DNA from: Paragyromitra xinjiangensis
Taxonomy: Eukaryota; Ascomycota; Pezizomycetes; Pezizales; Discinaceae
Assembly (NCBI GenBank): GCA_038503065.1
Contig: JBCAMK010000011.1
Location: forward strand, 1,922,001 to 1,986,000
Length of the DNA stretch: 64,000 bases
Direction of reading: 5' to 3'
Shown piece after piece: positions 18,365 to 58,950 of the stretch. Position numbers and translations under genes: made by a program. How positions within the stretch are numbered: the first letter of the stretch is position 1; the number at the start of each line of letters is the position of its first letter. The notes under the pieces are model-generated. The model was not told the DNA's origin and did not search any database. It saw only the letters and a program-made list of their open reading frames with translations.

Positions 18365-19006
18365 TCAAGGTTCGTGGTCTGAGCTGTGCCCTGGGAGGCT
18401 GCTTCCTGAAAGCTGGGGGCGGAGATGTGCTATCTCAATAGGACCGCCGTCGGTTCGGGTAAGCCGGCGCAAATCCTCACTGAAAATAGTGATTTCATTC
18501 ACTAGCTCTAGGAGTTTCGCACGATCGTGGAGAGCCCAGTAAATCTTCCTAGCCAATGAAGTCTTGTTTTGGGCGGGCCGTAACACCCCTGATTTTGCAA
18601 ATATAGCTCTAGAGGCTGAGTGGAGTCTATGGCTAGCGTGGATGTATACGACCTCGGCGATTGGTCGATACATATGCCGCGGGGCGTACTTCATGAGAAG
18701 ATTGGTGGCGTCCTCAAAGTTCTCATTAAGATAAATCAAAATCTCAGCGGCGGAATCCGAGACGGCTCTGCCCTTGAAACGTCTTTCGCAGAATTGCTGA
18801 ACAAGCATTGGGTTTAGGCTCTGAAGCAAGGCAAGTTCCTCTACCCATTTCAAGTATAGGACATATTCAACCTCAAGTCTACAAGCTAGGCGCTGGTAAT
18901 CTCTCTTATACGTTTTGGTCTTGGAGATGGTATCAAGGAGGTCGAGATAGGTTGTGAAAAGACCGGTGAGGCTGACAATAGCCAGAACCAATCCGACAGG
19001 CTCCAT
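18365..19006 (-). pseudogene. HeLo-domain family, copy 1 (truncated: linker and anchor lost)
   Basis: Opens MEPVGLVLAIVSLTGLFTTY and carries the whole HeLo-like region (about residues 1-195), including LKWVEELALL in place of the usual LKWGEA-GLL, KYAPRH, and TSLARKIYWALHDRAKLLELV. It then ends after 213 residues at HSSDHEP. In the paralogues this last motif (HSSGHDS) lies just before the membrane anchor, so roughly 100 residues of linker are missing. After the stop, the conserved RDW motif and hydrophobic segment continue in another frame. HeLo is the N-terminal cell-death domain of HET-S. This copy may make a soluble HeLo-only protein or be dead. A 260-bp MITE starts 22 bp upstream of its start codon. 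Confidence 0.7.
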
Positions 19007-19028
19007 TCTCTAATATGTAGTTCTTGGT

Positions 19029-19288
19029 ACTTGCTGAAAAATAAAGTTAGTGACGTGGGTAAATCTCGGCAGCAACCACCTCATTTTAGGCTTCAGGAAT
19101 TGACAACATGACTTGAGCCCCAAAACGCTCCAGAAACCACTGCTACCTTAATTACCATCAGAAATAACTTGGAGCATACTAACAAAGATAAGTCTGTAGT
19201 TCGGAGTCCGCTGTGTTTGGATTCGGGGGGAGGTGGGTTGGTTGTGGCCAAGGCCTACCGCCGTCACTAACTTTATTTTTTAGCAAGT
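19029..19288. mobile_element. MITE, CTTGCTGAAAAATAAAG family, copy 1
   Basis: Left end ACTTGCTGAAAAATAAAGTT and the reverse complement of the right end ACTTGCTAAAAAATAAAGTT extend into AGTGACG; TA flanks both ends, fitting a TA target duplication. A second, end-damaged copy is nested at 20995-21258. It lies immediately 5' of HeLo copy 1 (divergent reading). Confidence 0.7.
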
Positions 19289-20554
19289 AAACTTTCGGTA
19301 GAATAGTCATGAAGATCACTTACCCTAAGTAATTTATAGAATTGACTAAGTCTTAGCAGCAAGTTGGTGCGATCCCTTCGTTCGTTTTCAGGCACGGGAG
19401 CCGCAACCAGAAGAGTGTCGAAAATGCGGGATCACGCTGTGACAATTGTTCTGTTGGGAGAACCCTCAAAGACAAGGTCGTTACGATACCCCCTCTGGCT
19501 AGTTACTGCTGTTAATAAGCGCACTAAAAGTGTGTGAAAAACGGGACTGACTAAGGGATTGATTGTATCTCTTGACGTAGGATTATAATCTTTCTGGTGC
19601 TCAGTGTTCGAGTCCTGGCACGATCGCGGCGCTTGAATACCCCCCGAGTCGTCAGGAAGAGCTTTGGCGGTGGAGACCCGTGGAGTTGAGTGAAAGATTC
19701 TAACGCAGAGGGAGTGGGATCATGCTATGACAATTGTTCTGTTAGAAGAGACTGACGTCTGATGTTTAGGTGAAGAGAGAGGGAGGGACTTATCTCTTAC
19801 GCTGGTGGTAAAAAGCTGGCACTTAGCTACCAAACTCGTTGGCAGCTTTACCAACTTAAGAATAGAACGGGAGAAACGGCAGCCTTAACAGCACATTCAG
19901 AAACAAGTACAATCACCGGGTGACGGCGAATCCTGTCTGATGGCGAACAGGGGTTATGCGCAGTACAGGGGTTATGCGCAGTACCATAGCATTTCGTGAA
20001 ATTCGTTCCAGCGCTAGGGGGTAGAACATATATGTAGGTAAAAAGCAAACGAGGCAAAGCTTGATTCGCCGTCGCTTGCTTTTCATCGCCAAAACCCTTG
20101 GCGCCCCGTCACGAGGAAAACTGGATAGGCCCGGGCCTTCACCCGCGGGGTTATGCGCTGGAGCAGAGCTTCTCGGGTAGCTAGATGACACGAGCGATGA
20201 GATGAGATGAATATGACAACGCACGCGAACGAGCGGGAATCGCGATTTTGAAACAACAACACAGGTTGAAAGGAAACGATTATCTGCCTCGTTTTCTATT
20301 ATTTTCCTTTTCAATTTACTGTAAGGGCTCTTGAGATTGCGAACTGTGACGTTGGTAGCGCAGCACTTGTCAAATAGTGATCGTATTATCTCGGTCATGG
20401 AAAACTGTCCTGGACTACCGTATAGTTTCGGGCGATACCCCCGAGGGGATCTCGCGCAACCAGGGAGGTGGTGGCGCCTATAAACGAGGCTGAAGGTCCT
20501 TCCCACCAATCAAAAGTTTCTATCCCTCTTGGTTCTGCAGGATCTCCCCGGGGG
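19289..20554. repeat. Decayed dispersed repeat, related to 21.8-23.2 kb
   Basis: Shared blocks with other parts of the window include GAACGGGAGAAACGGC-GCC (near 19866 and 22978) and the stretch around 20180-20410 with 21850-22090 (GATGAGATGGA, GATTGCGAA / GATCGCAAA). Near 19575-19622 there is a tRNA-like piece (TGTTCGAGTCC B-box match). An open minus-strand frame at 19913-20509 has no recognisable domain. No gene is called. Confidence 0.45.
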
Positions 20555-20666
20555 TACTCATGTCGCCAGAATTAATGTCAGTCACGGGCTGACGAACAAG
20601 CGGAGAATTCGGTTTTGATTGGTCAAATCCATCACGTGACTCACATTAATTCTGGCGACATGAGTA
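20555..20666. mobile_element. Hairpin MITE, TACTCATGTCGCC family
   Basis: TACTCATGTCGCCAGAATTA and its reverse complement form near-perfect 31-bp arms, continuing with ATGTCAGTCACG versus ATGTGAGTCACG. Total 112 bp, ending in TA on each side. Confidence 0.8.
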
Positions 20667-20897
20667 GGCTCAACTTAAATACTTTAATTGAAACTACTCT
20701 ATTAGGAAGGTGGGCGCTTGATTGAGATCGAAATTTTTGATGCTTTACGGCCGTTTCCGACACTTCTTGAGGTTTTCCGAAGGCCAATTTAGAACTGCCC
20801 AGTCCAGGCCAGTTCTTTATGGTCGAGATAATACGGTATGCAATTGATCCAGCAAATGTTGAAATGTAGCGAAGATTGTGTTAGGCAGTGCATACCC

Positions 20898-21391
20898 GTA
20901 CTCTACTTCGGGGGTGGGGGGAAGTCTTTCACCAGGTGGCAGTGCGAGTTGAGTTGGCGGTCAAGCTTCAAGACTGAAGAAGCTCTTGAAATTTTACTTG
21001 CTGAAAAATAAAGTCTATGACGTGAGTAAAACCAACACCACACACATCATGTTATAAGGCCCCAGCCGAATTTAATGTCTTCTAAAGTCCTAGAACCACT
21101 GACAATAAGATAAGACTCGGTTCTTTACTAGAAACCAGAAGCAGAGCATAACCTGCCCTCAATAAGAGGCCTCAAACCTGGGTTCGGTTGTAGGGGAAGT
21201 ATTTGCATTGAGCTGGGGCGTGGTTTTGGTTGCTACCCAGGTTTACCACGTCACAGACTACCCTTACAGAGATAGAAAAAATTAAAGGCTACTTAACGAA
21301 AGGAGAGCACCAGAGTGTTGAGCGTGAAGAGAAGCACCACCGCCACCACCGCCACCTGGCGGCAGACTTTCATCACCGTGTCCGGAAGTCC
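20898..21391. mobile_element. MITE, AGTACTACGGGTGTAGGG family, copy 3 (diverged, carries a nested MITE)
   Basis: Left arm TACTTCGGGGGTGGGG...AAGTCTTTCACCAGGTGGCA, right arm GCCACCTGGCGGCAGACTTT. The interior parallels copy 4 at 30881-31124 (TTAACGAAAG-AGAGC-C-AGAGTGTTGA) except for an inserted block at 20995-21258. Confidence 0.6.
20995..21258. mobile_element. MITE, CTTGCTGAAAAATAAAG family, copy 2, nested and missing its right tip
   Basis: Begins TACTTGCTGAAAAATAAAGT inside copy 3 of the other family, after ATTTTAC, and ends ACCACGTCACAGAC, where the last 16 or so bases of the terminus are missing. Compared with copy 4 of the host element the insertion point is clear. Confidence 0.6.
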
Positions 21392-21429
21392 TTTGTGCCC
21401 TACAACTAGAGAGGAGGGTGCCGAGATTT

Positions 21430-21760
21430 TGCGATCACTCGCTTTCATCAGAGCCTAGCCGACTCTCAAGGCGCTGAGGGTCGGCCAACGTGAGAGCAAC
21501 GTAGCGATCGGCTTCCAAATGGTGATGGATAATGTCGACGATAACCCCTATTAGAGTTATCCTCTGCTTGGCTCCACCCGTACCTATTCCATTAGCGCTT
21601 GTAAAACGCCTATTTCGCAAACGCCACTGGCATACGAGTATATACTCCTACCTTAAGGCTTATGTATAACCAGACGTACGGACAAGGTGGTTGTAGTTCG
21701 AGCTTCGCTCTTATACTGCCACATGTCTTCTGATGACATCATCCTTCAGCCCTAACCCCC
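21430..21760. repeat. Dispersed repeat unit a (uninterrupted copy of 22255-22720)
   Basis: Shares GGTCGGCCAACGTG, AGAGCAACGTAGC, TTCCAAA-G-TGATG, CCTATTAGAG and a 3' block TTCTGATGACATCATC with the second copy downstream. It provides the empty site for the hairpin element at 22299-22464. No coding content recognised. Confidence 0.6.
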
Positions 21761-22254
21761 TTATCTGTGATAGGGAATCAAGCTCCCAGCACGGCCAGGC
21801 GGCATAAGAGCCCACACCGTTCTACGATCGGCAGTACTCTAGAGTAGACGATACAAGCGATGGGATGAGATGGACGTCTAACAAATGACACGACTTTGGA
21901 GCGGCGACACGAGTTGAAAGGCAGCAATTCGCACTATCAATCATGATTTTAGTCCTCTAGACACGCGTCCTGGGTCTAGCTATTATAATTATTTGCCTTA
22001 TTTTCCATTGTTTAATTTTTCTACCTGAGATCGCAAACCATTGATGTTGGTGGTTTGCGGTGAAACGCTTATTAAATAGCTAGTTGACTTAACTATGTAA
22101 CTAATCTAACAAGTGTTGAATACGAAACGCAGCAAAGGCCGGGTGTTAGGCAGTGAATATCTATGCAGTCACATTCGGAAAGCCCTCGCACCCTCCGACC
22201 TATTGATAGCAACTAGATAGCTTTCACAAACGGGGCTGTGTGGGTCACCTTTTG
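21761..22254. repeat. Decayed repeat between the two copies
   Basis: Parts of 21850-22090 resemble 20180-20370 (see the 19289-20554 entry). AT-rich, no gene. Confidence 0.4.
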
Positions 22255-24785: not shown

Positions 24786-25895
24786 ATGGAACCAATCGGA
24801 TTACTCCTAGGCGCCGTTAGCCTTGTTGGGCTTTTCACAACCTGTCTCGACCTTCTCGATGTCATCTCCAGATTTAACGCCCATGATACAGACTTCGAGT
24901 ATCTGATTTGCAGACTTGAGGCTGAGAAATTTTTGCTCTTAAAATGGGGAGAGGCGGTTGGTTTGATTCAGAGCCCAAACTCAACGTTCACTCAAAAACG
25001 CTATTACAAGAATCTAGTAGACAAAGGCATCTTGAATTCTGTCGAGGAGACTCTGAATTGTCTCAAGGGGAGATTCAAGAAGGTCGACGATATTCTCATG
25101 AAATACACCCCGCATCGACTAAAGGGCGAGATCGTATCCACCCGTCCTAGGCACGATCTCCGTTCAACCTTTAAGGTCACGAAGGCAAGAAATGAGAAGA
25201 AGTCGAAAAGTGTGCAAAGCGAGATCTCGGTGGCTATGAAACTTCGCTGGGCTCTCCATGATCGTAAAAAGCTCTCAGAGCTGGTTACTGAGATCACAGA
25301 GCTCAGTGAAAGTTTGCGCCAGCTTGTTCCTACAGACGGATCTACTGGGGCGGATCTCGTTCTATCCGAAGTGACTCCCGATCCTAACCCTGGAAGGTTC
25401 GTGGCATTTACTAGAGTACCGAATCCCTATTTCGTCTTCGATACAGTCAACTTTCAATCTTCGGACCTTATTGAGCATGGCGCTTGGATCATTCCTCGGG
25501 TGCATGATGGACTACAACTAATAGCCCCAAGGCATGCAATGGATCGGAACAATTACCAGGAAATCTTGTCGGCGGAGGAGTCAACTAGATCCAATAATAC
25601 CTGTACCTGGCAAGAACCTACTCCAGCAGAAACATCAGCTACAATAGATAGTTCGGACGAGATAACGGACTCCTTAAGTTACCCGGAAGCCCGAGACTTA
25701 CCGGTAACAACTCGGTCTGAGAGTGATCTCCTGGAGCATAGCCCAAGCCACAAATCTCCCGAACAACGCAGGCGAGGTTGGATGGGTGATAGGTTCTTTG
25801 CTTTGCTTGCTTATGCGGTTTTTTCCTTTGTGGCTATCATTCCCATCACAATTATCTATCTGAAGGTCTTTTTGCCTAAACTTAAGCTTATGTAA
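24786..25895 (+). CDS. HeLo-domain protein with C-terminal membrane anchor, copy 2 (369 aa)
   Basis: Intronless. I start at ATG 24786 (MEPIGLLLGAVSLVGLF), the position conserved in paralogues. The N-terminal HeLo-like domain (about residues 1-205) shows the hydrophobic first helix, FTTCLDLLDVIS, LEAEKFLLLKWGEAVGLI and, at its end, SVAMKLRWALHDRKKLSELV and LRQLVPTDG. This matches the family of the HET-S cell-death domain, where the N-terminal helix inserts into membrane on activation. Residues about 206-330 are a variable, Ser/Thr-rich linker. RRRGWMGD then leads into a strongly hydrophobic segment (about 336-360) and a short Lys-rich tail, a tail-anchor-like end. No NLR, lipase or prion motif is fused. 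Likely role: self/non-self or death effector at a membrane; that is inference. Confidence 0.75.
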   Translation: MEPIGLLLGAVSLVGLFTTCLDLLDVISRFNAHDTDFEYLICRLEAEKFLLLKWGEAVGLIQSPNSTFTQKRYYKNLVDKGILNSVEETLNCLKGRFKKVDDILMKYTPHRLKGEIVSTRPRHDLRSTFKVTKARNEKKSKSVQSEISVAMKLRWALHDRKKLSELVTEITELSESLRQLVPTDGSTGADLVLSEVTPDPNPGRFVAFTRVPNPYFVFDTVNFQSSDLIEHGAWIIPRVHDGLQLIAPRHAMDRNNYQEILSAEESTRSNNTCTWQEPTPAETSATIDSSDEITDSLSYPEARDLPVTTRSESDLLEHSPSHKSPEQRRRGWMGDRFFALLAYAVFSFVAIIPITIIYLKVFLPKLKLM

Positions 25896-28424: not shown

Positions 28425-29501
28425 CTAGGAGCGCACTAGACCAATCATTTTAGGCAATAATTCCTTCATGAAGCTAGTGATGAGGGGGATCATAACTATT
28501 AAGGAAATGATCACATAAAAAAACAAAATGCAGGGCATGATGTACACCCAGTCTTGTCTGGGCTGTTGTTTAGGGGCGTTAGAGCTTTGAATACGTTCTG
28601 TGGGGCTGTTGGCGCGAGTTGTTACGAGCATGCTGTCCGAGATGTTGACCCCAGCTGACGTTACTCCTGGAATAGGCTCTCGGTGGCTAAGTGGGTTGTT
28701 GACTCTAGTTGATTCTTCTGCCGGCAGAAGTTCTCTGTCGCTATGTCGATCCGCCGCACTTCCAGCAGCAATTTGTTGTTGCCCATCGGGTACCCTAGAA
28801 ATCCTCCCAGTATCGTGCTCGATAGGGCCCAAATATCGACTATCGACCGTGCCCAGGATAAAGGAGGGGCCCAGTTCCCTAAAGAGGTTGAACACAAGTC
28901 TTCCAAAATCGATACCGCCAAGAATTTCAGACAGGGTGCGACCCACTTCAGCTGCAACGGGTCCGTCAGTGGGGACAAGTCGGTGCAAATCCTTGCTGAG
29001 CTCAGCGATCTGGTCCACCAAGCCTGAAAACTTTTCGCGGTCATGGAAAGTCCAAGAAACTTTCATAGTGAACGAAGTCCTGCTCAGCGCACGTTCCGGC
29101 ACCCTTTCCTGCCCTAAATTCGCACAGGGATTGTAGCCAGGGCAGGTGTACGTGACTTGTTCCGTTGGTTTATGCCGTGGGCCGTACTTCTTGACGAGAT
29201 CGTAGGCAGTTTGAAACCGTCCTGCGAGACAAGCCAAGGTCTGATTGACGGCGTTGAAGGTGTTTTTGTCTTCTAAGAATGTGCTGTAGCCTTGTTGATC
29301 GAGCGTCCCATCTGGGTTCGGACAAAGACCGACAGCCTCTCCCCATTTCCAGAGTAGGACTCTTTCAGTCTCAAGTCTGCAAACCAAGTACTCGAAATCC
29401 TTATCGCGGGCTTTGAAGCGAGAGATGGCATCGATTAGGTCGATACAGGTTGTAAATAGTCCGATGAGGCCTATGATTAATCCGATGGGCTCTACAGGCA
29501 T
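28425..29501 (-). CDS. HeLo-domain protein with C-terminal membrane anchor, copy 3 (358 aa)
   Basis: Intronless. The frame is open 81 codons further upstream, but alignment with paralogues sets the start at 29501 (MPVEPIGLIIGLIGLFTTC). The HeLo-like domain has LETERVLLWKWGEAVGL, YDLVKKYGPRH and TSFTMKVSWTFHDREKFSGL, with LHRLVPTDGP closing it. The linker is longer in the HeLo-proximal part and rich in polar residues. PRQDWVYIMPC opens a hydrophobic segment (about residues 320-345), followed by KELLPKM and a short basic end. The 5' region lacks the MITEs found before copies 1 and 2. It reads toward copy 2, tail to tail, 2.5 kb apart. No frame damage was found. Confidence 0.75.
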   Translation of the reverse strand: MPVEPIGLIIGLIGLFTTCIDLIDAISRFKARDKDFEYLVCRLETERVLLWKWGEAVGLCPNPDGTLDQQGYSTFLEDKNTFNAVNQTLACLAGRFQTAYDLVKKYGPRHKPTEQVTYTCPGYNPCANLGQERVPERALSRTSFTMKVSWTFHDREKFSGLVDQIAELSKDLHRLVPTDGPVAAEVGRTLSEILGGIDFGRLVFNLFRELGPSFILGTVDSRYLGPIEHDTGRISRVPDGQQQIAAGSAADRHSDRELLPAEESTRVNNPLSHREPIPGVTSAGVNISDSMLVTTRANSPTERIQSSNAPKQQPRQDWVYIMPCILFFYVIISLIVMIPLITSFMKELLPKMIGLVRS

Positions 29502-30772: not shown

Positions 30773-30882
30773 GTACTCGGGTCAGGGTAGTGGAGATGGA
30801 ATACCGGAATTCATTTTCCGTTCTGCGAGGTCACCATACAAAAAGTGTGAGACCTGTTCCATCTCCATATGCCTGGCCCTAG
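30773..30882. mobile_element. Hairpin MITE, AGTACTCGGGTCAGG family
   Basis: AGTACTCGGGTCAGGGTAGT and the reverse complement AGTACTAGGGCCAGGCATAT flank a 110-bp hairpin; both run into GGAGATGGAA. Related direct copies lie at 31174-31370. Confidence 0.6.
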
Positions 30883-31124
30883 TACTTCGGGGGTGGGGAA
30901 AAGTCTGTCACGAGGTAGCTGTGCTGGCAGTGCGAAACTTGGCCGCCAACTCAACTCTGGGCTTGGAGTTTTACAGCGACCTTACAGAAAGTAGAGAGGC
31001 TTCAGAGATAGAGAAAATCAAAGGTTACTTAACGAAAGAAGAGCCCTAGAGTGTTGATGATGAAGGGAAGAGCCGCCGCTAGCACCGCCACCTGGTGACA
31101 GACTTTTCTCTACACCCGTAGTGC
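30881..31124. mobile_element. MITE, AGTACTACGGGTGTAGGG family, copy 4
   Basis: Left AGTACTTCGGGGGTGGGGAA; reverse complement of right GCACTACGGGTGTAGAGAAA; both continue AAGTCTGTCACSAGGT. 244 bp. It overlaps the end of the preceding hairpin by the shared AGTACT. Confidence 0.7.
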
Positions 31125-31173
31125 ATGTAAACCAATTTTCGGCCGATTAGGAGAAGGATCGGATATTCCTGCA

Positions 31174-35489: not shown

Positions 35490-37600
35490 TCTGAGAAATA
35501 CTATATCTTATGAAAGAAATATATTCTCGCAATATACTAAACTTCGGTCACCTGCTAGCCTGACGGATACAAGAATTCCCGCCCAGGTATCTTCACGCTG
35601 CCCAGGCATTTTCTTTCTCTACGGAGCGGTACAGTAGTCGGCGTTTCACGAAATATACTCTGAGCCTAGTTGCTGACCTTTGATGCTGGGGTATTCCGTG
35701 AAGGGGGAACTTCTGATGGGTCTGTTGATGAAGGTGAGTAGTTTTGGTGATCGTGATGGGAGATTGGCTAGAATCTCTGGGGCCACTCGTCCTAGGTTTA
35801 TATGCCCTCGTTGTTGTATACGGTTCGATCGTGGTGGCATTTTTGAATAGACTTTAGAATAGTTTCTGCAGGGCATCAGATTTCAGTTTCACGTGGGCAT
35901 TGAGGTGACCTTATGCACGGAGTATCACTCGCTCTTTTATGCGTTTATCATTTTCCCTTTGATTGATTGATATTTCGTCACGCATCCAGCCCTTGGGCTA
36001 TGGCAGCATCATTTCCCTTTTGCTTGCTTGTAATAATACATATGACTGCTTGAGTTATTGCGCTTTTATATTGTTTAGGGGTCAATTGTAGCTAATGCCT
36101 TTCCTCATGCAAAACACTTTTTGGAGGGTCGTCGAATCTCCTACCTCGATTTTAGAGGTCTGAATATATTGCTAACACCCACCCGTAATCTGAATCAACT
36201 TGCTGGGAAAGGAAGCAAGGAAGTAGATAGGTATCTCGCTCAAGACCGAAAACTCCGCTAACAAGTTATGGAGGTACCCAATAGCAAGAACGGATTTTGA
36301 GGCATGTGCAAGGCGGGACTTTGTTGGCTATGAAAGCTTGTTAGGCTGTCTACGACCATTCACGTGGTGCTCTGTCCTAGCATTTAAGGTTTGGCACTAG
36401 GCCTTTGCACCTTACATGTTTCATTTGATGAGAAATTATTGGGTACATGTAGTTCTAGAGAGCTAGGAGACAGGGATGTAATACGCCTACACCGCTAGAA
36501 ATAATGCCTGTCTTAATGTTTTGGCATGGCTCTGCATATCTAAAGGGTAGACCAAGCCAATGCAACATGCAACACTCTTAGCGTAAGGGCTAGGGGGGTT
36601 TCTGGGGAAGGTATTGACATAGAATTGAAAACTGCCCGCACACAGCTTTGGAGGAAATAGACCTTTTACCTTTAATATCGAAGCGGCTTCCCACACTCTT
36701 TTTTGCCCGGAACCTTTACCCCAGGAGTGTTGCATGTTGCATTAGTTCGGTCCACCTTTTAGATGTGCGGAACTATACTTAGTGGGATAGAAGAAGCGTC
36801 ATTGCATAGCTATAGCGTGTTAGCCAGGGCTAGGCGCTAGTCCCTACCCACGGAATATTGTGTGGTTTACCGTATGCATTCTACAACTTCTCGTCATCAA
36901 ATTCCTCCGTTTCATACGGCTGATTGCTACTCCCCGCCCCTTTGCTTGGGTGTCTTGTCGAATCCTACGACCTGTAATCTTTCAGATCAATTCTTCGATC
37001 ACTTTAGGGCCTCATTTACTTCTAAATTATAATTCCCTAACGGAGTTTAGTAACTAGGTACACCTTCTAGCAGATTTTAGCGTGAAGGCGCTAGCGACGG
37101 TTTGAGTGGAGGCTTTAAAATTGATATATAATGATCCTAATAGCTATATAAATGTATATGAGGACAATACCTTATGCCTAAGGGTTCAGGCTATGAGAAC
37201 TCGAGTGAAATTTTGTGAGACCCTAGGGTAAGATGCTTCTGTAGCAGCTGCAGCGTGCTTTTTGCCTATGTGAGAACTTGCCCAGGGCACACGAAGGCCA
37301 GAAATTTCTCTGAGCTTCCCGAAATAGTTTTACTACCGTGGCGGTATCAATGAAAAAGCCTTAAAGCGCCACAACAAGTTCTTTAAGACGGGATTAGGTC
37401 AATGAAACATAGAATCACCAAGTTTATGCCCGAAAACAATGATGCCAATAGGAGACTGTGTAATGATTATAACTTGTTCGTAGGGCAGCGTTATTGGTGT
37501 TGTGGCAATGGTAAAACCTAGAAATAGTCGAATGATGGCGTGCGCCCTAAGATAGTACCATGGATACGAAACGCTGGTAGTTAAAAACTGTCCAAAATGT
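35490..37600. repeat. Segmental duplication, copy 1 (partner 43800-46060)
   Basis: A series of blocks recurs in the same order in the partner: CTGACGGATACA / TGCCGGATACA, GTCGGCGTTTCACGAAATAT / GTTGGCGTCTCACAAAATAT, GGTGAGTAGTTTTGGTGATC, TTCTGCAGGG-AT-AGATT, GCGCTTTTATATTGTTTAGG, CCTCATGCAAAAC, CTATATAAATGTATATGAGG. The copies are diverged and have no gene in common, so this is an old duplication or two copies of a large degraded element. Confidence 0.65.
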
Positions 37601-38937: not shown

Positions 38938-39949
38938 TCTGCTAGTTAAGTTCGTTCTCTGAATCCTTGAAATGAATATTGCCATCAGGATCCTGACTGA
39001 TGTTGGTGGGGCCATCCGGGGGACAGTCTAATTGTAAGAAATCCTTCCTCAGCATGTACTAATCATAAGCTACTTGTTAGTGTGGCTTTTCAGATGGGCT
39101 AGCCAGCCCTAAAAGCTACGCCGTTTGTGAATTGGCTTTAATAGTCGAAACACGTATGTAGGGTCGTTCCTGGTGTGTAGCGAAACTAAGGTGAAAAATC
39201 CTCTAAGAAACCGAAGGTAGGGGTCAATAAAAACAAAATTTCTAGCTCCTTTCGGCTATTGAGAAGCTTTTTCATACTATTCATAGACTCAATCCGTATT
39301 TCTTAAGTTTTTTTCCTACCCTATCTCCTACCTTGGGCCAAATTTGTCGTACTCTCAGGAATAGCTATATAGATGACGGAGCTGCGGCTACGCAGGGCCC
39401 ATGGCACAGGGTTAGGGTTTCCTGCCGCTAATACCCCTGTTACCATCACAATTGAGCGGAGTATAGAGTGCTTGCTGTACCTTGATGGGTTATTGGAGAT
39501 CCTGTTGCCGTGTGAGTTGTTCAACGTGTTACATATGAGATGTGTTCGTTATCTGATTCCACTCTTGTACCCAGCCTATCCGGTAATATCTGAGTTTTCG
39601 ATTTTAGATGTAATATGCGAAGTGATAAATATGGTACGAATTGTCGCTATATCACACTAGGCATTTGAGAGGTGGATCTTCCGGACATCATGCGATATTC
39701 TTATGCCTAGAAAGAATAAATATATAAGAAAAAAACAAAAAAACCCTCAAAGGAAAAGTGCACTATGCCGTATCGGTGAATTTGAGGTTGAGGAAAGAAA
39801 AGATCGGAGATGACAGTGATAGGGTTAGCGGAAGAGGGTGATAGTTAGGGGGAAGAGACCAATAAAGTGGAGGTTCGAAAAAAGAAAAAAAGGTTGAAGA
39901 ACTCAGAAAAGCGAAAGACGGCTATGGCTTTGGAAAAAGATGGGGTAAG
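38938..39949. other. Intergenic, no gene seen
   Basis: A plus frame at 39373-39660 (95 aa) is open but has no domain. AT-rich sequence grades into the purine-rich minisatellite. Confidence 0.4.
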
Positions 39950-40737
39950 TGAAACACCAGCGACGATGGTTTGAAAAAGCAATGAAAGACGGAAAAAAAG
40001 GAAGCACCAGCGAGCGACGATGGGTTGAAAAAGCAAAGGAAGGAAGGAAGGGAGGAGCATGCAAAACAATGAGTTTGAAAAAGCAAAGAAAGGCAAAAAG
40101 CCGGCGACGATGGATTGAAAAAGCAAAGGAAGGGAAGAAACACCAGCGACGGCGGTTTTTAAAAAGCAATGAAAAACGGAAAGAAAGGAAGACCAGCAAG
40201 CGACAATGAGTTGAAAAAGCAAAGAAAGGAAGGGCTAAAAAGCAAAGAAAGGCAAAACGCCGGCGACGATGGATTGAAAAAGCAAAGGAAGGGAAGAAAC
40301 ACCAGCGACGGCGGTTTTTAAAAAGCAATGAAAAACGGAAAGAAAGGAAGACCAGCAAGCGACGATGAGTTGAAAAGCAAAGAAAGGAAGGGTTAAAAAG
40401 CAAAGAAAGGCAAAACGCCGGCGACGATGGAATGAAAAAGCAAAGGAAGGGAAGAAACACTACAGTCGCTCCTGGGTCAACGACGAAACTGGGCCAGCGA
40501 CGAACAGCGCTTGAACAGCAGGAAAAACTGGCCCTAAGCCATTAATGCTCATTGCTTTACTCCTATCTAGGCCCCTGTTCGTCACTGGCCCGGTCTCGTC
40601 GCTGACCCGGGGGCGACTGTAGCGACGACGGTTTTAAAAAAGCAATGAAAAACGGAAAGAAAGGAAGACCAGTAAGCGACGATGGGTTGGAAAAGCAAAG
40701 AAAGACAGGAAGCGGCGATTGTCCTTGCCAAGCTCTG
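39950..40737. repeat. Purine-rich minisatellite with 158-159 bp higher-order unit
   Basis: Short units of about 40-60 bp built on CGACGATGG-TTGAAAAAGCAAAG are organised in a higher-order period: CCGGCGACGATGGA starts at 40101, 40260 and 40418. The plus strand is A/G-rich; the long minus-strand open frames are artefacts of this bias. The third unit is split by a MITE at 40461-40621 and resumes at 40622. Confidence 0.8.
40461..40621. mobile_element. Hairpin MITE, CTACAGTCGCTCCTGGGTCA family, inserted in the minisatellite
   Basis: Arms of 47 bp: TACAGTCGCTCCTGGGTCAA and the reverse complement TACAGTCGCCCCCGGGTCAG, continuing through GACTGGGCCAG-GACGAACAG. It begins and ends with TA. The neighbouring repeat unit shows the empty site GAAACACCAGCGACG. 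CAGTCG ends within TA are typical of pogo/Tigger-type elements. Confidence 0.85.
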
Positions 40738-41832: not shown

Positions 41833-42852
41833 ATGCCGGTAGAGCCTGTCGGATTAGTTTTGGCTATTGCCAGCCTTTTCACAACCTGTCTCGATTTGCT
41901 CGATATCATTTCCAATACTAGGGCCTATGGCGCAGCCTACCTAGACCTGGTATGCGTGCTTGAGGTCGAAAGACTTCTACTCGTGAGGTGGGGGGAGGCA
42001 GTTGGTCTACTTCATCGCCCAAATATAAACCCAGCAATCGCCCAACCCTACAGCAAGCAACTAGAAGACGAAGAAATCTTACCCATCGTCGCAGAGATTC
42101 TGAGCCGTCTCAAGAGAAAGTTCGAAGACGCAAATGCTCTTGTCGCAAAGTACACCCCACGGCAACCAGCCGACAAGGACTTGTACCACCCCGACAGCAA
42201 TCCCCATTCAATCTTTAAGGTTGTGCATGCAAGACAGGGGAGAATGTTAGAGCGCATGCAAAGCGAAACTTCCTTGGTTATGAAAACTCTCTGGGCAATC
42301 TCTGGTCGTGCTAAGTCCTTAGATTTGATGAACGAAATCACTAAGCTCAATCGTTATTTGCGTCGGCTCGTCCCTATTGCTAGGTCTGTGGAGGCGAAAC
42401 ATCATGTCCAATCCGTTCCCGGAGAGTGCGTGGTCCTCAGCAGGGTGCCAAACCATAGCCTAGCCCTGAACGTAGCTAACGCTCATCACGATACGCGCGG
42501 CGAGCTGGGGCATATAGAGAACCGATATAGCTATCGAGAACACATGTCAGCGGAAGCGTCAGGTCACATTGACAGTCCAGACGGTGCAATCGGCCCTACT
42601 GGTCTCAAGGAAACTCAAAGCATATCCGCAATACTACGGGCTAGAGGTGACCTGTCAACACACAGCTCGGGTCATGATTCCATTAAACGATCAAGGCAGG
42701 ACTGGATGGTTAGCTTGTTCTTTATTTTATTTGTTTACGTGGGCATTCCATTCGCCATCATCATCTCTTTCGTGATCGCCATCATGAAGATTTTGTTATC
42801 TTTTCTGTTCTCTTTAGTTTGTGATTTCATTATGCGGGGGAGGTCTAGCTAG
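41833..42852 (+). CDS. HeLo-domain protein with C-terminal membrane anchor, copy 4 (339 aa)
   Basis: Intronless, starting MPVEPVGLVLAIASLFTTC; four residues shorter in the first helix than the paralogues. Domain landmarks: LEVERLLLVRWGEAVGLL, FEDANALVAKYTPRQ, HARQGRMLERMQSETSLVMK, RYLRRLVPIA. The block HARQGRMLxRxQSE is shared with copies 5 and 6 but not 1-3, so copies 4-6 form a subgroup. The linker (about 205-285) is polar. RSRQDWMVSL leads to a hydrophobic segment at about residues 293-318 with a second hydrophobic stretch after it, so the end could be a hairpin rather than a single anchor. No frame damage. No NLR or prion motif is visible nearby. Confidence 0.78.
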   Translation: MPVEPVGLVLAIASLFTTCLDLLDIISNTRAYGAAYLDLVCVLEVERLLLVRWGEAVGLLHRPNINPAIAQPYSKQLEDEEILPIVAEILSRLKRKFEDANALVAKYTPRQPADKDLYHPDSNPHSIFKVVHARQGRMLERMQSETSLVMKTLWAISGRAKSLDLMNEITKLNRYLRRLVPIARSVEAKHHVQSVPGECVVLSRVPNHSLALNVANAHHDTRGELGHIENRYSYREHMSAEASGHIDSPDGAIGPTGLKETQSISAILRARGDLSTHSSGHDSIKRSRQDWMVSLFFILFVYVGIPFAIIISFVIAIMKILLSFLFSLVCDFIMRGRSS

Positions 42853-43799: not shown

Positions 43800-46060
43800 G
43801 AATACCGTATCTTGCGAAAGGGAGCCATTCTTATAAGGGTTGCTCGTTATACTGGGCTTAGGCCATCTGCCGATTTGCCGGATACAGAGGTTTTCATTTA
43901 TGTATTTTGATCTTTCCTAGGTACTCAACGAAAATCAAAGTCTCGGGTGGCCTAGGAACCCTAACCCATGCCTAGGCCTAACTCAATCACGTGTGAAGGG
44001 CCAAATGAGTGTTAGTGAGCTAGAGGATATGACCTGAGCTGGGGGATAGGGTTTTTGGCATCTGGATACTACAATAATCGTCGAGTATGTTCGCTACAGT
44101 GTGGTATGGTAGTTGGCGTCTCACAAAATATCTTGAAATATCCTGAGGATAGTAGCTCACCAAAGAAGCATTTTGTAGGGAGAGAATTTCTAATAAGCCT
44201 GTTAATAGAGGTGAGGAGTCTCGGCGATCGTGGTCGATGGGAGATTAGCAACGGTCTCTGGGACTGCCCACTCCTAGATCCATACATTCTCGTGGCCGTA
44301 TGTGGTCAGATCGTAGTGACGGTGCTTATGAATAGATCTTGGACTAACTGCTGCAGGGTATAAGATTCTGGTTTCAGATAGTTTGTAGCTTGGGTGACAT
44401 TATGCACAGAAAATCACTCGCTTCCTGCGTTCCCATTTTATATATGGCCGCCCGGGTTATTGCGCTCTTATATTATTTGGGGATAAATTGTAATTAGTGC
44501 CTCCCCTCATGCAAAACTCGCATTTTCTTGAGGGCATGGGATCCCCTACCTCAACGTTAAACGCCATCTGAATCTATTGGTAACACTTACCTATAATCCA
44601 AACGAATTTATCGGGAAGGGAAGCGGGAAGTTATCTTACTAAAGACTAAAAGCCGAGCGAATAAGTCATGGAGGCACTGATAGTACTTTCAGAACTTTCT
44701 ATAGAGCAATATATAACAGAGGACTTACTAGAAAACAGTATCTCTAACAGCGCGTTCCCAGATATTTCGAGTGATGGATTGTGATTATATTCAGTATAGA
44801 TGGGTGAAGTGTGAGATGTCAATCCTCTATCCAGGCCGGTAGTTTTTGAAACTTGATTAGTAGTCCAAAAGACTCAATATGTGTTTGTAGTCTAATTGGA
44901 ATAAGATGGCGAAATAGGAAAAGGCGGAAAAAGCTTAAGTTCTTTAGATAAGGAGCTAATAATACATCACATCGATCGCCAAGAATGTGATTACGTGAGA
45001 GTTAGAACCGAGTGCTAGCCCGTGCTCTACTAGTGTTGCTATCCTAGAAACGAACCCCTGCTGGATTTCCTTTGTCTCTCCTGGCTGCTTATTAGCGGTT
45101 ACCCCTATTTCGTACTAGGTGCTGCCTTTAAGTTTTTTATCCGGGTATCTTGCTGACTCGTGATTTTCGGCGCCCAGCATATTTTTTCGAAATTATTATT
45201 TAAAAATGTGCAATTCCGCCCGGATAAAGGCCCGTTAGGTACGAACATGGGCGCCAAGCATCAAAGGCTGGGCACGGGGCAGCTCAACAGCTACTCAGAA
45301 GCCTTTAGATTAATTCTTGCAATTGAACAAATTAACTGCTTCACTTCACTCCTCCGGCTGCATTTGTGGCGAGTTGACCCTTTCCGGAAGTATGTGAGGA
45401 GGTTGGTTACAAAATGAATGGAACTTCAGTATTACATGTAGTCATGGATATATCAAGTTATATAAATGTATATGAGAATAAAATATTATTCGTACCAGTA
45501 CAAGGATATTTAGGCTATGATAACACGAGTGATATCTTGTGAACTCCGGAAGCGAGATACTACTGTAGGACGTCACGCTTTCCACCACCTTGCTTTTCAC
45601 CACCTCGCTTATAAGCGAACGTTCCTGTGCTCGAAGACTATAAACCCCTCCAACCCCCGCTGCCGCTTGTATGCGGCTATCGAGAAATAGAGGTATCAAT
45701 TTGTCTCGTTCCCAGCCTATCTTCCGTTATCTGTAATTTATCTAGAGACGCGCGAGGTACGAATCCTGGTGTTAAGCATCTAGGTACGAGACGGTATTAG
45801 CAATAGAGTTACGGTTAATAGTTCCGAGCCCGCTTAAAGCGCTATGGCGAGCCTTTAAGACAATATGGTGGTGGGGAATAGTTCGATCGCCGTGTTCGTG
45901 TTTGAAGCGATGGTATTAGTGAGACCGTGTAACGATCATAGTTTATCCCCGAAGTGGTAGTGTTGATAGGGAATAGTAGCAGTACCCCTTATGCTGGCAA
46001 TTCTGGGAACATCAGACATGGTTGTGTCTTGGAGGTGTGGCTTGAGTGTAAAACTAATTC
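43800..46060. repeat. Segmental duplication, copy 2 (partner 35490-37600)
   Basis: Same ordered blocks as the partner, including CATTATGCACAGAAAATCACTCG versus CTTATGCACGGAGTATCACTCG and TATATAAATGTATATGAGA. Frames at 44055-44363 and 45160-45417 have no domain. Confidence 0.65.
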
Positions 46061-49234: not shown

Positions 49235-50347
49235 ATGCCAGTAGAGCCTGTCGGATTAATTTTAGGTGTTGTTAGCCTCATTGGGCTTTTCACGACCTGT
49301 CTCGACATGCTTGATACCATCTCTAGTCTCAAAACCCATGGTGCGGCTTACTTGGACTTAGTATGTGCGCTTGAGGTCGAAAGAGTCTTACTCTTGAAGC
49401 GGGGAGAGGCGGCCGGCTTGCTTCATAACCCGGGCCCGGCGGCCACTCGGCAGTCGGCTATCCAGCAGCGCTGCAGTGAGCATTTGGAGGACGAACGCGT
49501 CTTGCTTGCCGTTGCTGAAACCTTGGGTCGCCTCAAGATAAGGTTCGAAGATGCCAACGACCTCGTCAGAAAGTATACCCCACGGCATCGACCAACCGAT
49601 GATATCGTTTATATCCACCCTGTCCGCAACCCCCCTTCGGTTTTTGAGGCCGTGCATGCACGACAGGGGAGGATGTTGAAGCGTGTGCAAAGCGAGAATT
49701 CATTTACTATGAAAGCTCGCTGGGCTATCCACGGTCGTACCAAGTCCTTAGAATTGGTAAACAAGATCACTAAACTCAATGAGAATTTGCATCGACTTGT
49801 CCCTATCGCTAGGTTTACTGAGACCGAACATCTTCAAGCTGCTAGGCTACCTGGCCACCGCCTAGATCCAGCCACGGGCCCCACCGAGTACATCTCTCCC
49901 AACCTTCCTCAGATGCACAACGGGCTAGGACAAGTTACCCTAGCACATACAACAGACCACTGCGGTTGTCGAGAGATCGTGTTACTAGAAACATCAACTG
50001 AGACCCACGATTCGCATAGCTGCCGAGAGTTAACGTTAGTGGGAACTTCAATTGAAACCGACAGCTTGGACGGCACAACGGACTCCTCTAGCCACCGACA
50101 GACTCGAAGTATCTTGGCAGAGGCACGAGTCAGGAGCAGCATCTTAAAGGACAACCCAAACCGTGGTCAGCGTCCCGTTAAGCACCAGCGTAAGCAAGGC
50201 TGGGTGTATAGTACATTCTTTGTTCTCTCCGTTTACATGGTTGTTTCCTTCATAATCATCATTCTACTCATTGTCGCCATCATAAGCGTTATATTGCCCA
50301 AAATATTCTCTCCATTTGTTATTTTATTGCATAGTAGAGATCTATAA
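49235..50347 (+). CDS. HeLo-domain protein with C-terminal membrane anchor, copy 5 (370 aa)
   Basis: Intronless, MPVEPVGLILGVVSLIGLF. HeLo-like domain about residues 1-205: FTTCLDMLDTIS, LEVERVLLLKRGEAAGLL (Arg replaces the usual Trp of the KWGEA motif), FEDANDLVRKYTPRH, HARQGRMLKRVQSE, TMKARWAIHGRTKSLELVNK, LHRLVP. It has a small insertion after LHNPG (TRQSAIQQRC). The linker holds two similar Ser/Cys-containing blocks, GCREIVLLETSTETHDS and SCRELTLVGTSIETDS, an internal repeat. KQGWVYST then starts a long hydrophobic segment (about 327-354) followed by LPK and a second hydrophobic patch. Frame intact. Confidence 0.78.
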   Translation: MPVEPVGLILGVVSLIGLFTTCLDMLDTISSLKTHGAAYLDLVCALEVERVLLLKRGEAAGLLHNPGPAATRQSAIQQRCSEHLEDERVLLAVAETLGRLKIRFEDANDLVRKYTPRHRPTDDIVYIHPVRNPPSVFEAVHARQGRMLKRVQSENSFTMKARWAIHGRTKSLELVNKITKLNENLHRLVPIARFTETEHLQAARLPGHRLDPATGPTEYISPNLPQMHNGLGQVTLAHTTDHCGCREIVLLETSTETHDSHSCRELTLVGTSIETDSLDGTTDSSSHRQTRSILAEARVRSSILKDNPNRGQRPVKHQRKQGWVYSTFFVLSVYMVVSFIIIILLIVAIISVILPKIFSPFVILLHSRDL

Positions 50348-54638: not shown

Positions 54639-54773
54639 TACTCGGGGCAATGAAGAACCCGAAAAGGCAAGCGGGAGTTGGCCAATTAGCCCCGATAATG
54701 TGGCTAGGGAGAGCGAATCAAAAAATCTTACCAGCAAAAGGCGTTTTCCGGTTCCTCACGCCTGCCCCGAGTA
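54639..54773. mobile_element. MITE, TACTCGGGGCA family (135 bp)
   Basis: TACTCGGGGCAATGAAGAAC on the left and the reverse complement TACTCGGGGCAGGCGTGAGG on the right, both continuing to GGAAAA/CGAAAA-GC. TA ends fit a TA target. Confidence 0.65.
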
Positions 54774-56509
54774 TACGTACCTTAGAATGCGCCTGAAATA
54801 AACCTGATTGGACATGACCTTCCGTAGCAAATGGAGTGGCAATAGAAATCGGTAAATATATGTATGCGAAAGGATCGCAGCAATTGTTTTTAGTAGTTGT
54901 GGGTCAAGTTGACTTGGCTTACCCCCCTCCGTGCATACGGTAAGCTTATGCGAACGCCTGAGTGCTAATTCCACCAACCTAACCCTGGTTTAATATGCTG
55001 GCCGGTTTATGCAGCGCCAAGCGAGCAGTTGGCAATGCGCAGCCACTCAAACCTACGCTCACATTTCGCGCCCTTCTTCGCGCCCCTCTTCGATGCTGTT
55101 TCTCCATCGGAGAAAGAGGTCTCGCTCTAAATAATAGAGACCATTCGTAGGAGAGTTTTACACGAAGAGGAGCTCACATCTGTATATCGGAGCGGGATCG
55201 AATAAATTTTACCGATGGTGTACCTACTTGATTTGACTGCCTGTAGGACGGGTAGTTTTATGCAAACTATTACTAACTTTACAGAATTTTGAACTTTGGA
55301 ACACATGCCGTCACTAGCAAGAGAAAAAAAGTGACTGCTCTGCTCAAGGCAGTTCTGGTTGAGCCCCGTTTGTTACTTCTGAAAGTTTACGGTATCTTAA
55401 TACTTCGAGGCCACAGAGTAGTGTTGGCTACGTTGTGGATTTCCTGCCATTCCTGCAATAGATCTAAGAGTAGGGCTTTGTGGTCAATCCTACTACGAGA
55501 ATCTTCCCTCATACATAGCCCTGTTCGTTGTAAAGACTGGGTGTGCTAGTAATATGTAAATCGTGTCATTAATTTTTATCGCACACAATCTAGCAGTGCT
55601 ATGGTCGAGACCTTTTCTAGCCAACGACGATGAAAACCCTGACTTTATCTTTCAGCCTTCTTTTATTTCTGATTTTTGTCCTGATTGACTTCCTGCTGTT
55701 GGGTCACGTGATTTGGTCGACGTGTTTATCGCTTGCTCGCTATTCATTTACAGCTGTGTCCCAAAAGTCTTCGTGCCGCCTTGTTAGTGCTTCCCACACA
55801 CAACTTAACTTGAGGTACGATCGTAATCGAGAAACAACAGTTCTAGTTGATTTTAGCTTCGAGCGCTTAATAAAGTGTTTAAATCAATTAACTGTTCACT
55901 TTGTAATCAGGAGCTACAAAGTGCAGGGCCACGCTCACAAGGAGTAGCCATAGTAAGTAGTAGTAAATTATTTATCATGTTAATTCTCGTAGATTTTCTT
56001 CATAATTTGGGCACTGCCATATAGTCCTGAGGGCGGGACACGGCTATACTTACTCAAACTTATTGTTGAATGAGCTTTCAAACTGGCCTAAGCCTACCTA
56101 AAGGTGCAGTAAGCGGTGAGAAGGCTTTTGTTTATTGGAGGGCCACGCACGGTCAAAATCTGGCCGACTGGCTGATTAGGACGGCTTGGATGCAGCCCAC
56201 CTCTGGTTGAACCTGACGCGGAACTTGCTTCTCACTGCTTAGAACATATTCAATCACGAGTAAATACACATATAGGCAACATAAGCATCTTGTGATCTAC
56301 CTTCACCTAAATAATCGACATTCCTGTTTCTTTCTTGATGTTGATCTAAACCCTAAGCCCTTCACTAACTCCGCGAGACAATCAGTGCCTAACCCATAGC
56401 CTCTATCAGATCTTCTACAGCAATAGTTCGGAATGGTTTGGGAATAGGCAAGGCGGGCGAAGAGGTAATTTCAGTGATAAAATATTGGCAGTGATCAGAT
56501 CAGCGAGTT
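54774..56509. other. Intergenic, no gene supported
   Basis: A plus frame at 55630-55947 begins with a hydrophobic stretch (SLLLFLIFVLIDFLLLGHVI) that resembles a signal anchor, but it overlaps repeat-like sequence (AAAAGTCTTCGTGCCGCC, compare 27250-27280) and has no known family. I leave it uncalled. Confidence 0.35.
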
Positions 56510-57010
56510 ACAATGGTTCTTACCATCCCTATATTCTCTCCAGAGCCTCCACTCCATTCCCCATCCATTTCTCCCTGCTCCCGACTGTCCCATTTCTCCC
56601 CCATCTCTCCTTTATCTCTCTCCATCTATCTTTCATCTCTTTCTCCCTCGTTTTCGTTCATCTTTCTCCTGCTATTGATTATCTACATGTATCCGTTTCC
56701 CTTAACCCTGTCTAGGTATTTCTCTCTACTCACTTCTTTTCGCTGTCAACGACCATAATCACCTCACTGGCTTCCTCTGTGCTGCTAAGTCATTCTTTCT
56801 CCTATTATTCCTCGATTTCCTCCCCATTTCTCCCCTTCTTCCTTGCTATCAACCGTCCGTCAGTTTTCTTCAGTGCCATCCAATTACTTCTTCCTCCAGT
56901 TATTCTCCTTTGTTATCGATTACCACCACCACTTGCCCATCTCCCTCCATCCACCCAACCACCTCTCTACTGTTCATGAGCACCACCCATTTCCCTCCAC
57001 GCTGCCCAGC
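56510..57010. repeat. Pyrimidine-rich low-complexity tract
   Basis: About 500 bp of the plus strand is dominated by C and T (CTCC, TTTCTCC, ATCTCT), with loosely repeated TGCTATTGATTA / TGCTATCAACC / TGTTATCGATTACC blocks. The overlapping open frames encode only low-complexity Ser/Pro/Leu and are not called. Confidence 0.6.
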
Positions 57011-57960
57011 CATCCCCTCTCTATGCTTACATGTGGTGCCAAGAATGGATTGATGACGAGCAAGGTTCACCACAGCAAAAATTTACAACTTGAGCCCAAC
57101 ATTCGATACCCTGTTGTTGGCCAAACTCGGTTGTTGGCCAACAAGCGACTATGGCAGCGGCCCTGACGGATACCCCTCTCCTTACAGGGGCCACCTCCTC
57201 GCCTCGCCCCGTCTCATCAACATCTCCATCTCACTCTTCTTCCCCTCTTGGCCGCCAGGTGCTGCCCAACTGCATTTGGGATACGTAGGCATAAGATATC
57301 CAATGCTGAAAAGACTGCCAAAGCGAGTTATGCTCTACGAATTGACACCAGAGGTGACGCATTGGTAACTCGACTCCGGAAAATACATGTTTATTCCCGC
57401 CGGTAATCGTGCGTGGTGAACGTATTCATTCTTAGGTTGCTTAACTGGTGGATATCATTCCACGACACCCATCTCCATCAGCTAGGGTTCACCACGGGCT
57501 ATCGCTAGTCTGATGGCATTGGGAGGGCATCGAGGTATAAAATTACTTTCTCATCCCCCCACATATGCCACGACTCCAATTCCCACGGTAGACTTAAGGC
57601 TAAACAACATACATAACCTTCAACACATTCGATCACGGAAATAAACTCTCCCGAATACAAGCATCCAAACCCTGCTACCATTATCTTTCTTCTGGTTATC
57701 ACACATCATAAATCGAATATTGATCTCGTTCTCTACTTCACACATTACGAGCCGACATTAATCCTACAATCTGCTACACATTTAATATTAGCAGCCTAGT
57801 CACTCTAAAATCAACCTCTCGTAGAGGAAAACTTGATACTGTCACGCCACCTCACCCCTGGAATTCGCACCACCGTACTGTATGTTGACTCAATTACTCT
57901 GGTGTTTGATCTCTACAATTATTCTCCATCAATATCTTACCAGAAACCACAGGATTCACA
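57011..57960. other. 5' flank of HeLo copy 6, no gene seen
   Basis: GTTGTTGGCCAA is repeated at 57112-57123 and 57131-57142. No other feature. Confidence 0.4.
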
Positions 57961-58950
57961 ATGCCAGTCGAGCCCGTCGGGCTAGTTTTGAGTGTTGTGA
58001 GCCTTATCGGACTTTTCACGTCCTGTCTCGAACTCCTTGATACTGTCTCCAGCCTCAAGTCTCATGGCGCAGTATACCAGGACCTAGTATGCATGTTTGA
58101 GGTCGAAAAAATTCTCCTCCTAAAGTGGGGAGAAGCGGCGGGTTTACTCCATAACCCAAACTCAAACACCGCGCAGCAACACTATAGCGAGCATCTCAAA
58201 GACGAACGCATTCTACTCGCTGTCGCCCAGACCCTAAGTTGCCTCAAAAGGAAGTTCGAAAACGCTAACGATCTTATCAAAAAATATGGCCTACGACGCC
58301 TACCAATGGACGATGCTTTGCACACCTACCTCGACACCAACACACACCCAAGCTTCGAGACCGTACACGCAAGGCAGGAGCAGATGTTGAACCGGGTACA
58401 AAGCGAGGCTTCATTAGCCACGAAGGCGCGTTGGGCTATCCATGACCGTACCAAGTTCTCAGGATTGATGAGCGAGATCACCAAGTTCAATGAGAATTTG
58501 CGCCGGCTTGTACCCATGGATAGAATTTTTGAGGTGGAACACCTCGTTCAGGTCGAAATCACCAATGGCACTACTGTCAACAAGCGCATAATTCTTACAA
58601 GGATACCAAGTCACCATCTAGTTTCAGACGCCACCAACACTCAATATCTGGATCTCAACGGGAGCGCCGGTGAGGGTAGTATCGGGGGTATTCAAGTACG
58701 AGATTGGTTGGAGCAAATAAACTCGGAATATACAGCGGATCAACATAGCTGTCGAGAATTCCTCTCGGTAAAAGCGTCAACTGGAACTAACTATTCGGCA
58801 GATTTCTCCAGTCGGCTGGAAGCCCAAAGCATATCTGTAAAAACGCGGATTGGAAGCAGCCTCTCCAGACATAGCCTAGGCCACAACCCTATTGAACAGC
58901 ATATACGAGACAGGATGGACAAGATGTTTTTTGTTTTTTTGCCTATGTGA
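57961..58950 (+). pseudogene. HeLo-domain family, copy 6 (frameshift inside the membrane anchor)
   Basis: Intronless, MPVEPVGLVLSVVSLIGLF. The HeLo-like domain is complete: FTSCLELLDTVS, FEVEKILLLKWGEAAGLL, FENANDLIKKYGLRR, HARQEQMLNRVQSEASLATK, RWAIHDRTKFSGL, LRRLVPMD. The linker is open. At the anchor, IRDRMDKMFFVFLPM ends at a TGA (58948-58950) just after a T7 run (58934-58940). In another frame the hydrophobic sequence continues for about 20 residues to a Lys-containing end, as in the paralogues. The run length therefore decides whether the protein has an anchor. It may be a genuine loss, a slippage site, or an assembly error in a homopolymer. As given, the product of 329 aa ends with only a few anchor residues. 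Confidence 0.75.

Follow-up and report, generated by a model that had tools for sequence, protein, structure and literature searches.

The locus analysed here raises the question of how a HeLo cell-death domain might be controlled when it appears to carry a membrane anchor of its own. In HET-S, amyloid templating frees the first helix of the HeLo domain, which then inserts into the membrane (PMC3531502; PMC10197012; PMC12881547). HeLo has otherwise been reported at the N-terminus of NOD-like receptors (NLRs) (PMC4986451), and it is found in many proteins with uncharacterised domains (PMC3531502). In the portions of the literature consulted, fungal HeLo either forms part of an NLR or belongs to a soluble stand-alone protein that moves to the membrane once a prion-like domain has switched it on. 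We examined a 64,000-nucleotide window of the Paragyromitra xinjiangensis genome (the whole stretch analysed; contig C11:1922001-1986000 of a 48.2-Mb assembly in 22 contigs) that contains six open reading frames (ORFs) for HeLo proteins, four with a hydrophobic segment at the C-terminus. The cluster shows a known effector domain in an architecture that is real and under selection, a combination that is undescribed in the parts of the literature examined. Both the architecture and the selection are supported, and we infer membrane insertion, killing and a trigger for the window proteins.

A cluster of six HeLo genes

The HeLo profile PF14479 gave 22 matches in the genome at 21 loci, two rows falling in one ORF, and six of these loci lie inside the window. 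Numbered by position, copy 1 (18365..19006, minus strand, 213 aa; PF14479 E 1.8e-23) consists of HeLo only. Copies 2 (24786..25895, plus strand, 369 aa; E 9.8e-35), 3 (28425..29501, minus strand, 358 aa; E 1.9e-29) and 5 (49235..50347, plus strand, 370 aa; E 2.9e-30) comprise HeLo, a linker and a putative C-terminal anchor, copy 4 (41833..42852, plus strand, 339 aa; E 5.4e-30) has a short linker before its putative anchor, and copy 6 (57961..58950, plus strand, 329 aa; E 9e-40) has HeLo and a linker, with a frame break within the anchor. All six ORFs had the positions, strands and lengths originally predicted, and the four frames open over 339, 358, 369 and 370 codons (copies 4, 3, 2 and 5) were confirmed too. 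These six were the only ATG-initiated ORFs of at least 200 aa within 17-60.5 kb; the longest ORF obtained from 40 local shuffles had 232 aa (median 153). Since shuffles reach 232 aa, the length of copy 1 is unremarkable and this copy rests on its HeLo match.

The assignment to HeLo, made at first without database searches, was confirmed for all six ORFs, which scored 83.9-137.1 bits against a Pfam cut-off of 23.2 (E-values from 1.8e-23 to 9e-40), the match beginning at residue 5-9. HeLo was the sole Pfam match in each protein. Consistent with this, there was a profile match to solved HeLo chains of HET-s/HET-S, namely 2WVN (E 1e-17) and 2WVO (E 1.5e-15). Two AlphaFold2 models had a mean predicted local distance difference test score (pLDDT) of 37 and 34, too low for use, and a fold search with the first of these unusable models gave no match at E 0.001.

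Protein architecture

Copies 2-5 share a layout of approximately 190 HeLo residues, a linker of approximately 95-130 residues and a C-terminal hydrophobic segment. Measured as the best 19-residue Kyte-Doolittle window (KD19), the hydropathy of this segment was 2.47-3.54 (2.47, 2.76, 2.75 and 3.54 in copies 2 to 5, respectively), and 12-24 residues follow its core, with 12 in copy 2. For comparison, we included six full-length relatives from other samples, P0001-P0004 and then P0005-P0006, the last two found via the HeLo part of copy 6. The C-terminal segment was present in all six relatives, including the three closely related to the broken copy 6, so that KD19 ranged from 1.91 to 3.54 over the ten anchored sequences (copies 2-5 and P0001-P0006), with tails of 5-24 residues. 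Between residue 61 and 60 residues before the end, KD19 reached a maximum of 1.11. By hydropathy, therefore, all ten have the single hydrophobic segment near the C-terminus, after a soluble domain, that would be expected of tail-anchored proteins. The only other strong hydrophobic segment in the parts of the anchored proteins scanned was the HeLo first helix (KD19 2.07-2.27), which was hydrophobic in all 12 sequences (1.89-2.27 over the six copies and P0001-P0006).

A hydrophobic end had been claimed for all six copies; it holds for copies 2-5, and copies 1 and 6 lack an in-frame anchor. Similarly, the basic tryptophan motif described as leading into this segment was found in copies 2-5 and not in copy 6 or in P0003, P0005 and P0006. 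The tryptophan recurs in P0001, P0002 and P0004; in copy 6, P0003, P0005 and P0006 the basic entry is of another kind.

Selection on the HeLo domain, linker and anchor

Omega (dN/dS) was estimated with a purpose-written codon model; three topologies served for the HeLo test, two for the test by region. The codon-model topology at first joined copies 5 and 6, the trees join copies 4 and 5, and the conclusions were the same on each. Over the HeLo part of all six copies a single omega of 0.50-0.51 was obtained, with twice the log-likelihood difference (2dlnL) from omega 1 being 46-48 across the three topologies. In copies 2-6, omega was below 1 both for HeLo (0.42, or 0.41 on the second topology; 2dlnL 61.8) and for the linker (0.64, or 0.65; 2dlnL 8.6). 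On individual branches, omega was significantly below 1 for copy 4 (0.44-0.46; 2dlnL 7-8), copy 5 (0.21; 2dlnL 22-23) and copy 6 (0.21-0.22; 2dlnL 35-36) on all three topologies. Differences within HeLo at codon positions 1, 2 and 3 were 0.33, 0.30 and 0.43, and were nearly flat in most pairs involving copy 1. The HeLo domain is under purifying selection.

Retention of the anchor was compared with a neutral star model (substitutions only, 4000 draws per ancestor). The chance that four anchors would all be open and as hydrophobic as observed was 0, 0, 0.0003 or 0.011, depending on the ancestor chosen, and with the condition relaxed to at least four of six anchors kept it ranged from 0.0003 to 0.07. 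These values provide moderate evidence that the anchor swaps residues freely yet retains hydrophobicity more often than under the neutral null.

Relatives in other samples

An alignment-based deeper search returned the same four proteins, P0001-P0004. In a tree of 12 HeLo domains (copies 1-6 and P0001-P0006) the window copies did not form a clade. Instead, copy 3 paired with P0004 (100/99), copy 4 with P0002 (100/100) and copy 5 with P0001 (95/92), and therefore at least copies 3, 4 and 5 diverged from each other before the split from the sources of these relatives. The position of copy 6 was weak in this tree, beside P0003 and the P0005-P0006 pair; with fewer relatives it paired with P0003 at 88/90. 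P0002 differs from copy 4 at 6 of 339 residues and P0004 from copy 3 at 5 of 358. Identity between P0001 and copy 5 was 87% in HeLo, 53% in the linker and 51% in the anchor, and that between P0003 and copy 6 was 69%, 50% and 67%, the last over 18 residues only.

When P0001 was queried against the genome, the best place was copy 5 (72%), and copy 5 itself found outside the window only a weak HeLo match on contig C16. We also built a wider HeLo tree with 12 of the 15 other genomic HeLo loci (omitting a fragment and two loci that contain stops), together with P0001 and P0003 and without P0002 and P0004, which are near-identical to copies 4 and 3. Here, the window family plus P0001 and P0003 formed one group (100/99).

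The two broken copies

The frame shifts within the anchor of copy 6, at a run of T, and anchor-like sequence runs on in another frame. P0005 aligns to this region across two stops. P0003, P0005 and P0006, the sequences from other samples closest to copy 6, retain an intact anchor, and the break is possibly a homopolymer assembly error. Given strong constraint together with a broken anchor, the break must be of recent origin, reflect an error or be tolerated. Most of the linker is gone from copy 1, whose frame changes ahead of anchor-like sequence; this copy is likely a pseudogene.

Candidate partners and other HeLo loci

Of the 131 window ORFs of at least 85 aa, 94 were picked by eye for a Pfam scan, 55 of them at 17-60 kb; the remainder were the six HeLo ORFs and 31 others that mostly overlap scanned ones. 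The absence of a partner NLR, as originally predicted, is true locally: no NLR gene was found among the 55 ORFs at 17-60 kb, and Pfam placed no NOD domain in the same protein as HeLo in any of the six ORFs. No lipase was found near the copies either. The nearest NACHT/NB-ARC matches on C11, at 487155 and 1069030, are more than 850 kb from the window. The prediction does not extend to the whole genome, which has 33 NACHT and 20 NB-ARC matches and in which HeLo stands next to NLR-type ORFs on C16, where a HeLo gene (C16:1580897) is followed by a NACHT-ankyrin ORF, and on C4, where a HeLo ORF is followed by an NB-ARC match. Queries with copy 5, P0001 and P0005 all scored best, outside the window, against the C16 gene (30%, 29% and 29% identity, respectively).

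At none of the other 15 HeLo loci did the HeLo ORF itself end in a hydrophobic segment (introns left aside); at two, both on C17, such a segment closes an ORF further along the same stretch. A domain scan covered ten ORFs from the 15 loci and found DUF7580 in four and ankyrin repeats in two; DUF7580 (PF24476) is C-terminal in four HeLo proteins elsewhere in the genome (loci L024, L026, L028 and L031). Querying with P0005 added a match on C3, a decayed HeLo fragment at C3:1947288-1947563 (33% over 75 residues to P0005), which, judged from this similarity, is possibly a stray relic of the window family outside the cluster.

Surroundings of the cluster

The copies had been placed inside a decayed transposon region, a description that proved imprecise: MITE-like repeats (miniature inverted-repeat transposable elements) are present, and no recognisable transposon genes were found in the sampled surroundings. 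Four intergenic stretches were compared with the genome. Three contain repeats of approximately 140-265 bp, several with terminal inverted repeats and many genomic copies, and the fourth gave shorter, more diverged genomic matches (66-88%). The repeat at 19028..19292 (approximately 265 bp) has terminal inverted repeats, its own ends matching inverted, has at least six genomic matches at 81-91% identity among the best 40 of 262 candidates, and sits 22 bp upstream of the copy 1 ATG. That at 30882..31125 (244 bp) has terminal inverted repeats of approximately 47 bp and at least 39 genomic matches at 80-96% among the best 40 of 257 candidates. A 142-bp repeat at 20415-20556, with inverted-repeat matches at one end, has at least five genomic copies at 99%, which suggests recent MITE activity. 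Between copies 3 and 4, 39892-40709 is a repeat array with units spaced approximately 159-186 bp.

A local duplication (35615-36277 versus 44090-44677, 66-71% identity) had no further genomic match for these parts, and no HeLo gene was found beside 35615-36277. A hidden seventh copy near 33-36 kb was rejected, as tblastn with ten family proteins gave, outside the six, only matches of E 0.57 or weaker. Repeat-induced point mutation (RIP) was likewise rejected as a general cause of the mutated surroundings, with a composite RIP index above 0 in only 6 of 32 2-kb blocks and negative in all six HeLo genes. Nor did a Pfam scan of ORFs at 17-60 kb support a large autonomous transposon around the genes. 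At E 0.01 there was no Pfam match in the 55 other ORFs of this interval, from which spliced genes with short exons could escape.

Outside 17-60 kb, the window contains an F-box ORF at 5557, two integrase-core (PF24764) ORFs at 12523 and 12916 and a Clr5-domain ORF at 13715 (these three on the minus strand), and sugar-transporter ORFs at 63030 and 63413. The integrase-core pair and the Clr5 ORF (12523-13993, minus strand) are probably the remains of one mobile element. The ORF at 4532-4786, scanned separately, had no Pfam match, tRNA and Rfam searches gave no match, and one GIT_SHD match in the profile scan was not placed. At its start, contig C11 has 24 units of CCCTAAA, a seven-base telomere repeat; the fungal telomere repeat is usually TTAGGG. 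Neither CCCTAA nor TTAGGG was found at the right ends of C11 and C16.

Interpretation and alternative explanations

The original interpretation stands insofar as this is a selected HeLo family with a C-terminal hydrophobic segment, unlike HET-S/NWD2 pairs and HeLo-NLRs. On balance, we give about an even chance to a birth-and-death cluster encoding tail-anchored HeLo cell-death effectors that are controlled after membrane docking. The C-terminal segment would insert as a tail anchor and leave the HeLo bundle cytosolic, pre-tethered to the membrane. Cleavage, binding, a receptor that carries HeLo or a partner allele that does not match might then gather tethered copies or alter the linker, whereupon the HeLo first helix would insert and the membrane would be breached. 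Since a fixed anchor makes recruitment needless, control would depend on oligomerisation, on the state of the linker or on how partners match; the controlled step would be oligomerisation or release at the membrane, not recruitment from the cytosol. Linker release or allelic pairing, both proposed at the outset, is compatible with the fast-changing linker. The cluster may turn over by local duplication, divergence and loss, like non-self recognition clusters.

Several observations weigh against this interpretation, and some of them would suit a decaying graveyard of duplicated HeLo gene copies with frames open by chance or recency, which we regard as unlikely. Copy 1 looks to evolve neutrally (own-branch omega 1.25, indistinguishable from 1); its frame is broken, and a MITE-like repeat lies on its 5' side. 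Branch omega in copies 2 (0.62-0.65) and 3 (0.66-0.69) was not significantly below 1 (2dlnL 1.6-2.0). The expectation that dN/dS would depart from neutrality was thus borne out for HeLo overall and for branches 4, 5 and 6, all well below 1, and not for copy 1, at approximately 1, or for copies 2 and 3. The anchor, with its frame broken in copy 6, is lost in two of the six window copies. Over 48 codons its omega in copies 2-6 (0.71-0.72) was not distinguishable from 1, and the neutral chance of 0.07 for at least four of six anchors kept arises when the copy 5 anchor is taken as the ancestor. No counterpart of copies 1 and 2 was found among the relatives in other samples. In codon-blind alignments of the 15 pairs, 47 of 85 gaps were multiples of three and 38 were not, many of the latter in cancelling groups typical of such alignments and counted neither way; these counts give no support for frame conservation. 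Pairwise silent distances among copies are near saturation, and the divergences are old. The graveyard explanation is opposed by that same age, as copies 2-5 are nevertheless open for 339-370 codons, by the low HeLo omega over the six copies (approximately 0.21 in copies 5 and 6) and by the six intact full-length relatives in other samples.

Control could instead reside in a partner, the anchored proteins acting downstream of a HeLo-NLR elsewhere, such as the C16 HeLo-NACHT-ankyrin locus, through HeLo-HeLo contacts and not amyloid. The C16 gene is the best outside match of copy 5, P0001 and P0005 and has a NACHT-ankyrin neighbour, but it is on another contig and the wider tree does not place it as sister to the window family; this version too appears unlikely. 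A diverged RHIM/PP-like amyloid motif hidden in the linker, which would make this a HET-S or HELLP-type system with a secondary C-terminal hydrophobic part, seems highly improbable. In line with the first report, no canonical amyloid motif was found: G-x-Q-x-G, the core of the PP/RHIM motif (PMC7885112), occurs in none of 13 sequences (the six copies, P0001-P0006 and the C16 HeLo). Upstream of 20 of the 33 NACHT matches, a search of three forward frames for the PP motif gave one match, with a stop soon after. PF11558 was absent genome-wide by profile, a result of little weight given that the control genomes were silent too. A four-residue G-hydrophobic-Q-hydrophobic pattern does occur in three linkers (copy 2, copy 6 and P0003), the aligned stretch being missing in copy 4, and other or so far undescribed amyloid motifs in the family are possible. 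Finally, these anchored HeLo-fold proteins might serve a non-lethal membrane role such as tethering or trafficking, with which the C-terminal segment in 10 of 10 full-length sequences and the lack of a known executor partner are consistent. We doubt this considerably: all 12 sequences retain the hydrophobic first helix, no copy has a proline where the H33P switch of HET-S lies (PMC10197012; alignment read by eye), and a fast linker with copy turnover would be unusual for housekeeping proteins.

Comparison with known systems

Like HET-S/HET-s of Podospora anserina (HeLo-PFD, controlled by NWD2), the window proteins are putative stand-alone effectors without a NOD domain whose N-terminal HeLo, with its hydrophobic N-terminal helix, is alignable along its length. 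They differ in having a transmembrane-like C-terminal segment in place of the prion-forming domain and in forming a six-copy cluster with no adjacent NLR found. All-in-one HeLo-NLRs (HeLo-NACHT/NB-ARC plus repeats) also have HeLo as their first domain, whereas the window proteins have an anchor instead of nucleotide-binding or repeat domains. HELLP and HELLF, which combine a HeLo-like domain with a PP or HET-s-related amyloid motif, are small stand-alone membrane-attacking effectors (PMC7885112), as the window proteins are predicted to be; by Pfam the window domain is HeLo and not HeLo-like, without G-x-Q-x-G and with a C-terminal anchor. A limited literature search, in which subscription papers were mostly not covered, did not turn up any HeLo protein described as having an anchor at its C-terminus.

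The nearest analogue, in organisation only, is the plant RPW8/HR cluster. Like the window family, it consists of stand-alone proteins that have diverged, in which a helical domain at the N-terminus is joined to a C-terminal part that varies, and it undergoes copy-number turnover. RPW8/HR proteins act with NLRs encoded elsewhere, C-terminal variation setting the compatibility with such an NLR. They differ as a plant family with C-terminal repeats of 14 or 21 residues and an N-terminal potential membrane segment (PMC6684095). A bolder version of the anchored-effector reading, which we put forward as a rather doubtful speculation, is that HeLo executors are tethered to the membrane for good and restrained by their linkers, that linker differences between copies or alleles decide partners, and that anchor-less members (copy 6 now) act as soluble triggers or brakes, giving a fungal counterpart of RPW8/HR without an amyloid step.

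If a conserved, permanently anchored form is confirmed, HeLo killing would be controllable after membrane docking. Fungi would then possess a cluster of diverged stand-alone executors like plant RPW8/HR, which would be relevant to allorecognition.

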